Below, piece by piece: positions 21,943 to 31,410 of a DNA stretch of 32,068 nt. Both the position numbers and the translations under genes were made by a program. Source of the stretch: an uncultured Opitutaceae bacterium (GTDB taxonomy: Bacteria > Verrucomicrobiota > Verrucomicrobiia > Opitutales > Opitutaceae); NCBI GenBank assembly GCA_903862595.1, contig CAIOYO010000111.1, positions 1 to 32,068 on the forward strand, written 5' to 3'. The notes beneath the pieces were generated by a model. The model saw only the letters and a list, made by a program, of their open reading frames with translations. It was not told the DNA's origin and searched no databases. Within the stretch, counting starts at the first letter, position 1. Each line of letters opens with the position of its first letter.

Positions 21943-22022
21943 GGGAGTGCGGCGCCGTCCGCACCGGTCGACCCACACCCCGTTGACCCATTCCACGCGC
22001 GGACGACCGCGCCATTACGGAT

Positions 22023-22052
22023 TTGACACGGGCCCGGAGGCCACGCTTCCTC
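22023..22052 (+). promoter_or_regulatory. Possible promoter of the attenuator leader (perfect -35 TTGACA)
   Basis: TTGACA at 22023-22028 is a perfect -35 hexamer located 36 nt before the leader-peptide ATG. No good -10 is visible at 16-18 nt spacing (the sequence there is CTTCCT-like), so the promoter is only suggested by position and the -35 match. Confidence 0.3.
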
Positions 22053-22063
22053 CCCACTCTTTC

Positions 22064-22186
22064 ATGTCCCTTCGCGGAACGACAATCTCGGCAGGCCTTT
22101 CCGTCCACGGTTACTCCGTGGTCGCCTCCGTCATTGCATCCATTTCCGTCGCCGTCGTCGTTACGCGCGCGCCGCAGGGGGCCTGA
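22064..22186 (+). CDS. Branched-chain amino acid attenuator leader peptide (ilv-type), 40 aa
   Basis: The 40-codon frame from ATG 22064 has 8 Val and 3 Ile. Residues 18-34 are nearly all Val, Ile, Ala and Ser, with three consecutive Val codons at 31-33 (22154-22162). The stop at 22184-22186 lies 19 nt before a perfect intrinsic terminator. This is the classical layout of ilv leader peptides, where scarcity of charged tRNA-Val or tRNA-Ile stalls the ribosome. The stall point would just free AGGGGGC (22176-22182), the antiterminator strand, whereas a ribosome at the stop codon would cover it. The frame can be extended upstream to 21947, but the ATG at 22064 gives the usual leader length. No biosynthetic gene follows. 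Confidence 0.75.
   Translation: MSLRGTTISAGLSVHGYSVVASVIASISVAVVVTRAPQGA
22105..22121 (+). promoter_or_regulatory. Upstream pause-type hairpin in the leader RNA
   Basis: CCACGG (22105-22110), loop TTACT, CCGTGG (22116-22121) is a perfect 6-bp hairpin inside the leader-peptide frame before the Val/Ile run. Its position fits the first hairpin, which slows RNA polymerase until the ribosome catches up in attenuation systems. Confidence 0.5.
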
Positions 22187-22211
22187 CGTCACTCTCAATG
22201 ACTCGCCCCCT
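22176..22211 (+). promoter_or_regulatory. Predicted antiterminator pairing
   Basis: AGGGGGC at 22176-22182, in the last leader codons, is the exact reverse complement of GCCCCCT at 22205-22211. The latter contains most of the 5' arm of the terminator. The two pairings exclude each other, which is what a transcription attenuator needs. Read by eye; energies were not computed. Confidence 0.65.
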
Positions 22212-22239
22212 CCGGTGCCGCCGGAGGGGGTTTTTTGTT
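22206..22239 (+). terminator. Intrinsic terminator of the attenuator
   Basis: CCCCCTCCGG (22206-22215) and CCGGAGGGGG (22221-22230) form a perfect 10-bp GC-rich stem with the 5-nt loop TGCCG. TTTTTTGTTT follows directly. It is the strongest Rho-independent terminator in the window and sits 19 nt after the leader-peptide stop. Confidence 0.92.
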
Positions 22240-22414
22240 TCCCCACCTGGCGCAGTCACCGCAGGGGGTGGTTCACCCAAAACCACCACCACCCAGCATG
22301 ACCATGAATGCCAGAACCCAGCCGAGCCCGGGCTTCCCGACGCAGACGTCCACGCCACGGTCGAACCAGTCGAAGGCGCTGCTCCGCCGAGACTCGTCAC
22401 CGTCAGGTGACGTC
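22240..22414. other. Non-coding stretch after the attenuator, hairpin-rich
   Basis: I see no gene here that I can support. Two perfect inverted repeats are present. GGTGGTT / AACCACC (22267-22273 and 22281-22287) has a 7-nt loop. CGTCACC / GGTGACG (22395-22401 and 22406-22412) has a 4-nt loop and lies just past the stop of the minus-strand VOC remnant. A plus-strand frame (22298-22552) is open but has no recognisable content and runs antisense to the VOC remnant. Confidence 0.6.
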
Positions 22415-22594
22415 CTACCTCTGCGGCAAGAGCGCGACCGCGAAACCGGTCGGATCATGACGCACGACTTTCTCCTGGCCAATCTTCACCCGGAGTTCGT
22501 GCGCGACGCCATCGCGGCCGAGGAACGACGGCTTTGCGCCATCGACCTCTAGCCGAGAAGGCGCCGGAAACGCGCCCCCTGCGATCAGGCGAAG
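22415..22594 (-). pseudogene. 3' remnant of a VOC/glyoxalase-family gene
   Basis: A minus-strand frame open between in-frame stops at 22595-22597 and 22415-22417 gives about 59 residues. It ends ELRVKIGQEKVVRHDPTGFAVALLPQR in pieces typical of a VOC domain C-terminus: a hydrophobic strand, the D-P-x-G-F/N motif and a final strand of the V-x-L type. No ATG or upstream domain half is present, because the 5' side runs into the 3' end of the rhamnose isomerase gene (10-nt overlap). Codons are GC-rich at third positions, as in real genes. It is probably the tail of a gene truncated by rearrangement. Short length keeps the call tentative. Confidence 0.45.
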
Positions 22595-23787
22595 CTACCC
22601 GCCTTAGCCATCCCCAACTCGCGCCGCCGCCGTGAACGGTCCCGCGCCGCGGCCTTTTCGTATCCACTCTTGCGATGCGCTGCGAGCGGATCGGCCGCCA
22701 GGCCCTGCGCCCGGCGCCAGGCCTGCAGCGCCGGGTTGACGTCGGTGAAGAACGCCTTCCTCAACTCCAGCTCCGCCGCGACGACGTCGTGGCGATCCTG
22801 GGCGCGGCGTAGCGCCTTGTGATCGACGAGGGCCGCCTTCGCGTACAACTCCTGCGCCATCATCACCGTCTGGATGGTCGCCTCGATCTTGGGCTTCTCG
22901 TTGTGGCACTGGTCGATCATGTAGGCGATCTTCGGGGCACGACCGCGCTCCGCAGCGAAGCTGTGAATCTCGTGGAAGATCCGGAAGACCTGATAGGGAT
23001 CGATCGAGCCGAGCGTGAGATCGTCATCCGCATAGCGCCGGTCATTGAAGTGGAACCCGCCCAGCATGTCCTCATCGAGGAGGAAGGCCACGATCTGCTC
23101 GATGTTCTGCCCGGCGTAGTGGTGGCCGGTGTCCACCAGCACCTTAGCCCGCGGCCCCGCCTTGCGCGCGAGCACGTAGGCCATGCCCCAGTCCGCGATG
23201 TCCGTGGCATAGAACGCCGGCTCGAAGGGCTTGTACTCGACCAGCATCGTCTGCCGCGGCCCGAGGCGACGGTGCAGCGTGGCGAGCGACTCCTCAAAGC
23301 GGGCCTTGCGCGCCCGCAGGCTCTCCTGACCCGGGTAGTTGATGCCGTCGGCAAACCACAGCGAGACATACTCGCTCCCGAGGGCCTTGCCGATCGCAAC
23401 GGAATCGAAGCAGTGCTGCAGGGCACGGCGACGCACCGCGGGGTCCGCATGGCCAAAGGATCCCCACTTGTACTCTTGGTCCTGGAAGAGATTAGGGTTA
23501 ATCGCGCCGATCCGCACGCCGTGCCGGCGCGCAAGGCGGGCCACTTCCTTCGGATCCTGGCCGGGCGCGAAATCCCACAGCACGTGCACCGCAACCGTGG
23601 GGCAGCAGCCCGTCAGCGCATGCACATGGCCGGCGTCTGCCAGCTTGTCGCCGAGATCGATCGCTGCCGCATCCTGGAAGAACTTGCCAAAGCGGGTGCC
23701 GGTGTCGGCGAATCCCCAGGAGGGAGTCTCGACGGCGAAACCGTCGAGCACAGGAAACAGGCGGGAAGCAAGGGAGGCGGAGGGCAT
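22585..23787 (-). CDS. rhaI: L-rhamnose isomerase, Pseudomonas stutzeri type (sugar isomerase TIM barrel)
   Basis: The protein has 400 aa from the ATG at 23787. It has FAVETPSWGFADTGTRFGKF at the N-terminus and metal-site segments MLVEYKPFEP (Glu184), VDTGHHY (Asp219, His222), GGFHFNDRRYADDD (His246, Asp254, Asp256) and YMIDQCHN (Asp292). Spacing of these residues matches the P. stutzeri enzyme, as I remember its numbering, with a constant offset of 35. It interconverts L-rhamnose and L-rhamnulose and is often broad for rare sugars. An in-frame GTG at 23841 has a strong AGGGAGG six nt upstream and would add 18 residues. The ATG gives the conserved start. No other rhamnose genes are nearby. 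Confidence 0.9.
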   Translation of the reverse strand: MPSASLASRLFPVLDGFAVETPSWGFADTGTRFGKFFQDAAAIDLGDKLADAGHVHALTGCCPTVAVHVLWDFAPGQDPKEVARLARRHGVRIGAINPNLFQDQEYKWGSFGHADPAVRRRALQHCFDSVAIGKALGSEYVSLWFADGINYPGQESLRARKARFEESLATLHRRLGPRQTMLVEYKPFEPAFYATDIADWGMAYVLARKAGPRAKVLVDTGHHYAGQNIEQIVAFLLDEDMLGGFHFNDRRYADDDLTLGSIDPYQVFRIFHEIHSFAAERGRAPKIAYMIDQCHNEKPKIEATIQTVMMAQELYAKAALVDHKALRRAQDRHDVVAAELELRKAFFTDVNPALQAWRRAQGLAADPLAAHRKSGYEKAAARDRSRRRRELGMAKAGSFA

Positions 23788-23926
23788 CGGAGGAAAATGT
23801 GTTGAGAGAGGACAGCGAGGGCTCGCCGCGAAGCGACGCACGCCGGACCTCCCTTTATCCTAGCGGCGCATCGGCCGTTGAGGAGTCGAAAAACCGTCGC
23901 ACATGCAAGGATGCAAAAGGACAGTT

Positions 23927-30843: not shown

Positions 30844-31410
30844 GTGCTGCTGGTCATCGATAACTTCGATTCCTTCACCTACAACCTCGTCCAGTACTTC
30901 GGTCAACTGGGGGTGGCGCAGCGCGTCTTCCGCAACAACGAGATCACTCCCGAGCAGGCGATCGCCCTGAATCCCGACCGGGTGCTGATCTCCCCCGGCC
31001 CGTGCTCACCGGCCGAAGCCGGCGTCTCCCTCGACATCATCCGTGCCTTCGCCGGGCGCAAACCGCTCTTCGGGGTTTGCCTCGGGCATCAGTCGATCGG
31101 CCACGCCTACGGGGGCAAGGTCGTGCGCGCCGACCGCCTGATGCACGGCAAGACGTCCCCGATCCTGCACCGGAACACCGATCTGTTCCGCGGGCTGCCG
31201 CAAGGATTCCGCGCCACCCGCTACCACTCGCTCGTGGTCGAACGCGCCTCGTTTCCCAGCGAGCTCGAGATCACCGCGGAAACCGCCGAGGGCGAGATCA
31301 TGGGTCTGCGCCACCGCACCCTTCCCATCTGGGGCGTCCAGTTCCACCCCGAGAGCATCGCCACCGAGGGCGGGATGCAGATCCTCCGCAATTTCCTCGA
31401 ACTCGGCTGA
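30844..31410 (+). CDS. trpG: Anthranilate/aminodeoxychorismate synthase glutamine amidotransferase subunit
   Basis: The protein has 188 aa from the GTG at 30844 (reads [15 protein letters not shown], the universal N-terminus). The class I glutamine amidotransferase triad is visible: Cys in [16 protein letters not shown], and His and Glu in [15 protein letters not shown]. It releases ammonia from glutamine for anthranilate (TrpE) or aminodeoxychorismate (PabB) synthesis. No trpE or pabB lies in this window, so a dual TrpG/PabA role is likely. The frame is open to TTG 30808, but those residues are not family-like. NrdR follows after 21 nt. Confidence 0.92.

Follow-up and report, generated by a model that had tools for sequence, protein, structure and literature searches.

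The window analyzed here, a 32,068-nt stretch of DNA from an uncultured Opitutaceae bacterium, carries on its plus strand a candidate promoter, a valine-rich leader ORF with overlapping RNA structures, and a small ORF that converges on a rhaI-like gene of the minus strand. The features are as follows.

22023 to 22028, plus strand: −35 element TTGACA, 41 nt before the leader ATG
22046 to 22051, plus strand: −10 region CTTCCT, 17 nt after the −35 element; the pattern in relatives is CTTTNT
22064 to 22186, plus strand: leader peptide ORF, 40 codons with 8 Val and 3 Ile, ending APQGA-stop
22105 to 22121, plus strand: early hairpin CCACGG-TTACT-CCGTGG, 6 bp
22169 to 22182, plus strand: antiterminator 5′ arm (region 2), within the final leader codons, folding with 22205 to 22218
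22185 to 22204, plus strand: small helix capping the antiterminator tip, between leader stop and terminator
22205 to 22236, plus strand: intrinsic terminator, whose 5′ arm doubles as antiterminator region 3
22298 to 22552, plus strand: small ORF ("HDFL protein"), proposed attenuator target, 84 codons, of no known family
22463 to 22498, plus strand: conserved motif HDFLLANLHPEF of the small ORF, consensus HDFLVxNxxPDL
22585 to 23841, minus strand: rhaI-like sugar isomerase gene, convergent and outside the unit (Pfam AP_endonuc_2 above cut-off, RhaA just below)

A preliminary description of this DNA had proposed an ilv-type attenuator, and its parts were recovered. The leader peptide (MSLRGTTISAGLSVHGYSVVASVIASISVAVVVTRAPQGA) has the 40 codons, 8 Val, and 3 Ile first counted, forming a short leader ORF in which regulatory codons occur in a run, and the 6-bp early hairpin lies within it. 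An intrinsic terminator stands 3′ of the leader; its GC stem, followed by a T run, has 12 pairs (22205–22231; −25.9 kcal/mol, z −4.3). Folding of 22160–22219 without the terminator 3′ arm gave the antiterminator (−30.3 kcal/mol, z −3.7), which bears out the pairing of AGGGGGC with GCCCCCT. Both alternative structures were found in this leader–terminator region and, judged by sequence only, the antiterminator cannot coexist with the terminator and reaches into the last codons of the leader ORF. The same description had seen no plus-strand gene until position 30844. This is refuted by the 84-codon ORF, which begins 61 nt past the terminator, ahead of rhaI, and is conserved at the same place in two related genomes (G005 and G003).

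Conservation of the leader, its structures, and its promoter

Of 57 genomes searched with the DNA of 22010–22245, 21 gave a match, counting the window's own. From those 21 leaders we built a covariance model of 99 positions, which matched 140 of the 252 genomes of the family (the source genomes being among those searched) and 36 of 49 genera, including all 10 genomes of the window's genus; 112 genomes and 13 genera gave no match. L304, the only match in G225, is false and reads as an ordinary terminator without a leader, so that our tally of downstream genes covers 139 genomes and 35 genera, with 146 leader loci. L306, a second match in G025, proved false in the same way. The tally also omits hits that the terminator, being palindromic, gave on the opposite strand in G004, G006, and G008, together with a weak second match in G150. 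In an order-level sample, 51 of 372 genomes matched, including 7 that do not belong to the family. Of the latter, five were read: at L298, L299, L301, and L302 a Val-rich leader precedes an acetolactate synthase gene, and at L300 the leader precedes a small ORF with HDFLVVNPRPDL. L308, a second match in G318, was unlike a leader on reading. In the window's own genome (G000; assembly 94.8% complete, 397 contigs) the model gave one match, and an nhmmer search with the leader found none in the 5.3 kb around the genome's only acetolactate synthase match; a second copy before ilvB, which it had earlier been advised to look for, was not found there.

Across 127 called leader peptides, Val makes up 21% of the residues, and Val-rich leaders stand at homologous loci in 35 genera. 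The peptides differ in length and sequence among relatives and keep their Val-rich runs, VV being present in 125 and VVV in 91 of the 127. In 95 of 127 peptides the C terminus is PRG or PQG, with one further residue at most, and the codons there form region 2.

The alternative structures are conserved with the peptide. The intrinsic terminator is kept in all 21 aligned leaders. The antiterminator positions of these leaders are paired in 92% of cases versus 49 to 63% when the partner is slid, and a region 2/3 duplex of −12 kcal/mol or lower forms at 125 of 133 loci versus 28% when region 2 is shuffled; 11 further loci, in which no terminator arm was recognized by pattern, lie outside this count. 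Strict covariation is slight: both sides change in 2 of 11 pairs, and the various measures are reached by 23 to 107 of 500 shuffles. Support for the antiterminator therefore comes mainly from preserved complementarity. The linker between leader stop and terminator can form a helix of at least 4 pairs in 77 of 127 cases versus 31% of mononucleotide shuffles, with sequences that differ by genus (TCGT/ACGA, GTCA/TGAC, GAAAG/CTTTC, and TTGTT/AACAA). The effect per linker is modest (median shuffle rank 0.22; rank at or below 0.1 in 30 linkers, with 13 expected). The CCAC..GTGG early hairpin is present in 56 of the 91 leaders that precede small ORFs versus 1 of 29 before ilvG. For a protector pairing of region 1 with region 2, at most 0.05 of synonymous shuffles were as good in 3 of 21 leaders, the share being 0.08 to 0.90 in the others, so that for most leaders the pairing hardly surpasses its shuffles.

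These data bear on the idea that a chance open frame happens to precede an ordinary terminator. Long open frames are indeed common in this G+C-rich window. Chance is nevertheless contradicted by the DNA matches, by the model matches (one of the 140 genomes being false), by Val-rich leaders in 35 genera, and by a motif in 101 of 107 small ORFs. The peptide and the antiterminator pairing, whose absence from relatives had been named earlier as part of what would speak for chance, are both kept in relatives. We reject this reading on the conservation of leader and small ORF and assign it virtually no probability.

An exact TTGACA lies 20 to 65 nt upstream of the leader in 87 of 127 cases, a version with one mismatch in 37, and neither in 3; shuffled upstream stretches gave 0.4% and 9.4% for the exact and one-mismatch forms. 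When the 87 leaders were aligned on TTGACA, an information peak, CTTTNT, appeared 17 nt past it, and the spacing from TTGACA to the ATG was 41 nt in 34 of 87 and 39 to 46 nt in 77 of 87. The leader promoters thus have TTGACA-N17-CTTTNT in common, with an unusual −10 element that lacks an A at position 2. The window's own −10 (CTTCCT) is weak and was not reported by a standard promoter scan of the window. With this arrangement, transcription would begin some 5 nt ahead of the leader ATG, giving a near-leaderless leader mRNA. The −35 box is also overlapped by a subthreshold Rfam match to the guanidine-II riboswitch (21995–22036; 21.9 bits, threshold 32), which is probably due to chance.

Genes behind the leader

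At the 146 leader loci, the next gene is a small ORF in 107 (24 of 35 genera), a second acetolactate synthase large subunit gene (ilvG) directly behind the leader in 30 (17 of 35 genera), an MFS transporter gene in 4, and ilvN in 1; at 4 loci the contig ends. A gene of branched-chain amino acid (BCAA) metabolism is absent downstream in the window and present at 31 of the 146 homologous loci (30 ilvG, 1 ilvN). The preliminary description had advised looking for an ilv gene directly after the leader in relatives, and the 30 acetolactate synthase loci supply it; together with the Val-rich leader and the antiterminator pairing, they give the ilv-type assignment good support at the sequence level. 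Seven genomes hold two leaders with different targets, which in G002, G127, G134, and G164 are a small ORF and ilvG. Across genera, comparison of the loci ties together the −35 element, the leader with its two alternative structures, and the small ORF.

The MFS transporter genes, of about 410 codons, follow the leader at L166, L177, L202 (genus g66), and L195 (G014), where the valine switch may also govern metabolite transport. At L199 (G013) the leader precedes ilvN, the gene for the acetolactate synthase small subunit.

Behind 18 of the 107 small ORFs, in 7 genera, lies an aminotransferase gene. The protein read at L038 is of the multiple-substrate/LysN kind (PDB 2egy and 1wst, E = 1.4e-90 and 3.8e-100), and the aminotransferase of the 18 loci is taken to be of this same kind; the gene is absent from the window's locus. 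Within the window's genus, G001, G002, G008, and G009 have the leader followed by small ORF, aminotransferase, rhaI (reverse), and lnt (reverse), an order that G007 shows as far as rhaI, where the stretch ends. G006 has the aminotransferase behind the small ORF and no rhaI within 11.5 kb downstream; the G004 stretch ends 150 nt past the leader. The window's clade (G000, G003, and G005) lacks the aminotransferase, and rhaI follows the small ORF directly; loss in this clade would be the simpler reading. Because the aminotransferase is absent and the small ORF kept, the window holds a locus without one of the two genes that follow the leader in its sisters, rather than an attenuator without a gene. 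The earlier suggestion that the controlled operon had been lost is therefore half right: the aminotransferase of the sister species is missing from the clade, but a conserved small ORF remains. Neither the label of an orphan attenuator nor the proposal that a short RNA or its antisense read-through is the product is needed, since a conserved coding sequence follows the terminator.

The distribution of the aminotransferase could also mean that the attenuator once served this gene (or acetolactate synthase), now gone from the clade, and that leader and small ORF are decaying. The gene's presence behind the small ORF in five sister species (G001, G002, G007, G008, and G009), where rhaI comes next, and in G006 fits such a decay, as does a small-ORF pN/pS of 0.55 for the pair formed by the window and L022, its nearest relative. 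Decay fits poorly, however, with the leader peptides of G000 and G005, which are identical at 38 of 40 residues, and with their small ORFs, whose last 34 residues are identical; 89 of the 107 small-ORF loci also have no aminotransferase behind them and keep the motif regardless. We regard a relic as unlikely.

A further alternative is that the leader RNA or peptide acts in trans, or that read-through acts antisense to rhaI. Trans-acting leader products do exist, the attenuator leader peptide peTrpL of Sinorhizobium meliloti being one (PMC7298713), and no terminator-like site is reported between the small ORF and rhaI, so read-through could enter rhaI. G006, however, keeps leader and small ORF with no rhaI in the 11.5 kb downstream, and this reading appears very unlikely. 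The peTrpL system and the one described here share an attenuator leader with a possible second role; unlike peTrpL, the product that we propose for an attenuator controlling the small ORF is a separate protein gene past the terminator, not the leader.

The small ORF

We picked the small ORF without regard to its motif, as the first ATG ORF of at least 40 codons starting 30 to 100 nt past the end of the covariance model, at the 111 leader loci that lack ilvG and have at least 330 nt downstream (5 shorter loci were dropped). Such an ORF was present at 107 of 111 loci, the 4 without being the MFS loci. The motif [HN]D[FLM][LI], usually in the form HDFLVxNxxPDL, occurs in 101 of the 107 ORFs versus 0.8% of residue shuffles; the six without it are ilvN (L199) and five variants assigned by hand. 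In the tally of downstream genes, 102 of the 107 small ORFs were chosen by motif pattern and 5 by hand (L136, L153, L164, L180, and L208). Variant small ORFs include HEFLVLCARPEM, TDFLALAFYPGM, and PADFLVTNLRPDL, and that of L153 is the most remote.

Within the 101 motif-bearing ORFs, Asp is encoded by GAC in 51 and GAT in 50, and Leu by CTC, CTG, TTG, CTT, and CTA; position ten is Pro in 87 of 99. Because synonymous codons vary freely inside the motif, selection acts on the protein. Outside the motif, Pro, Ala, and Arg are abundant and the chain evolves fast. In 13 genera, the closest pairs listed per genus have pN/pS values of 0.19 to 0.82, and most close pairs fall between 0.2 and 0.7. Searched with a profile built from 36 of these ORFs, the 252 genomes yielded 64 matches at E ≤ 1e-6, one per genome. 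Of these, 62 lie behind a known leader and 2 (G075 and G258) at contig ends; at L303, one of these two, the terminator 3′ arm is still visible. Weaker matches fall in frames elsewhere, including lipoate ligase-like proteins.

Database searches returned no family for the small ORF, with no match to Pfam for 4 members, no significant match to NCBIfam for 36 members (best E = 0.051), and none to PDB sequences (best E = 0.24, a laccase). No clear Shine–Dalgarno sequence was seen next to the ATG of the window's small ORF. By eye, a conserved hairpin seemed plausible in the stretch from ribosome-binding site to start codon; it was rejected because it is not clearly above dinucleotide shuffles (mean z of −0.74 across 101 small ORFs and −0.22 across 18 ilvG). 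An AlphaFold model is mostly unstructured (pTM 0.28), with one helix at residues 65 to 82, and is uninformative on fold. A conserved motif in a probably disordered chain suggests binding to a partner.

Arrest peptides combine a short motif with freely varying flanks. The small ORF resembles them in this respect and might itself, as an upstream ORF, regulate a gene that lies beyond it; the aminotransferase, which begins shortly after it in 18 of the 107 loci, would be one candidate. In the window, however, the next gene lies on the opposite strand, as it apparently does in examples from genera g26 and g7, a call that is a matter of judgement where ORFs overlap on both strands; g25 and g51 have matching frames. 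We consider a regulatory upstream ORF quite unlikely.

Proposed control of the small ORF

We think it probable that the locus is a ribosome-mediated Val/Ile transcription attenuator that controls the 84-aa HDFL protein encoded right after it. Ribosome stalling, termination, read-through, and translation of the small ORF are the steps that we infer. From the promoter would come a transcript with almost no 5′ UTR. As long as Val and Ile tRNAs are sufficiently charged, the ribosome would reach the leader stop and cover region 2 (22169–22182), so that the terminator forms and transcription halts at about 22236. Under a shortage of either amino acid, the ribosome would stall in the Val/Ile codons of the leader and region 2 would pair with the terminator 5′ arm; with the antiterminator formed, polymerase would read on and the HDFL protein (22298–22552) would be made. 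As read from its sequence, the window copy would work like a BCAA attenuator with a small ORF, not a BCAA gene, downstream.

Behind the same switch, acetolactate synthase, aminotransferase, ilvN, and a transporter elsewhere stand in place of the HDFL protein or beside it, which suggests for this protein a role in BCAA economy as the likeliest one. More tentatively, it may be a dedicated valine-starvation effector, small and mostly disordered, whose motif HDFLVxNxxPDL acts on a partner in BCAA metabolism, for example the remaining acetolactate synthase. If so, many Opitutaceae switch on a regulator protein through a classical attenuator, instead of or besides a pathway enzyme.

Attenuators classically control enzymes for the amino acid sensed, and transcription attenuators of ilvB and ilvG are known in enterobacteria. 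The switch described here is a new lineage of this known kind, with an unusual main target, the HDFL protein. One Val/Ile switch is kept across dozens of genera, and its target varies among an enzyme, a transporter, an aminotransferase, and, mostly, a small protein. The control region thereby hints at the conditions under which the small protein family is made, and the loci form a natural series for how a regulatory cassette outlives or swaps its target.

Candidate ilvB attenuators are reported in Corynebacterium, Mycobacterium, and Streptomyces (PMC1262725; PMC10272879). The latter source proposes that upstream-ORF attenuation of ilvB is common, which fits our acetolactate synthase class, and describes the ilvB-OMG and ilvB motifs as a short BCAA-rich upstream ORF before ilvB for which attenuation is suggested (PMC10272879). 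The element resembles ilvB/ilvG attenuators in its BCAA-rich leader peptide, its terminator, and the acetolactate synthase large subunit gene that follows at 30 of 146 loci; it differs in the small ORF of no known family that comes next in the window and at 107 of 146 loci and in the almost leaderless transcript implied. It likewise shares the short BCAA-rich upstream ORF with the ilvB-OMG and ilvB motifs as there described, and our ilvG class may overlap them. When the window region was compared with Rfam, neither motif came up even at a cut-off of E ≤ 5, and no Rfam 15 family reached its gathering threshold in the window or in 8 relative loci. A search of open-licence full text on leader peptides, attenuators, and acetolactate synthase in Verrucomicrobia, Verrucomicrobiota, and Opitutaceae returned no description of the element and a match on EF-P instead. 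Among the matches listed, in the extracts they gave, are ilv attenuators of other groups, none of them describing the Opitutaceae element, and the open-licence text searched did not, in those extracts, mention an HDFL protein or its pairing with an attenuator.

The small ORF may have arisen from ilvG or from a lipoate ligase-like protein, two candidates that sequence comparison suggests and neither of which is established. An ilvG-start profile (18 of the 30 ilvG loci) scores at least 8 bits in 3 of 102 small ORFs versus 0 of 2040 shuffles. The motif aligns with an HNFLV segment of ilvG at an hhalign E of 0.027, with a probability of only 1.8%, and the best copies that the motif matrix finds in ilvG are just above the 99th percentile of shuffled ilvG. 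Opitutales lipoate ligase-like proteins carry HDFLLLNRYPD near the N terminus (L307), and L330, L331, L333, L336, and L337 have DFL(L/M)L(Q/K)RYP in that position, which resembles the small-ORF motif. This resemblance may reflect chance, mimicry, or common origin. Scored with the motif matrix, the L307 segment reaches 26.7 and other relatives 10.7 to 12.9, compared with 8.0 to 9.5 for ilvG, but a laccase segment also scores 22.3.
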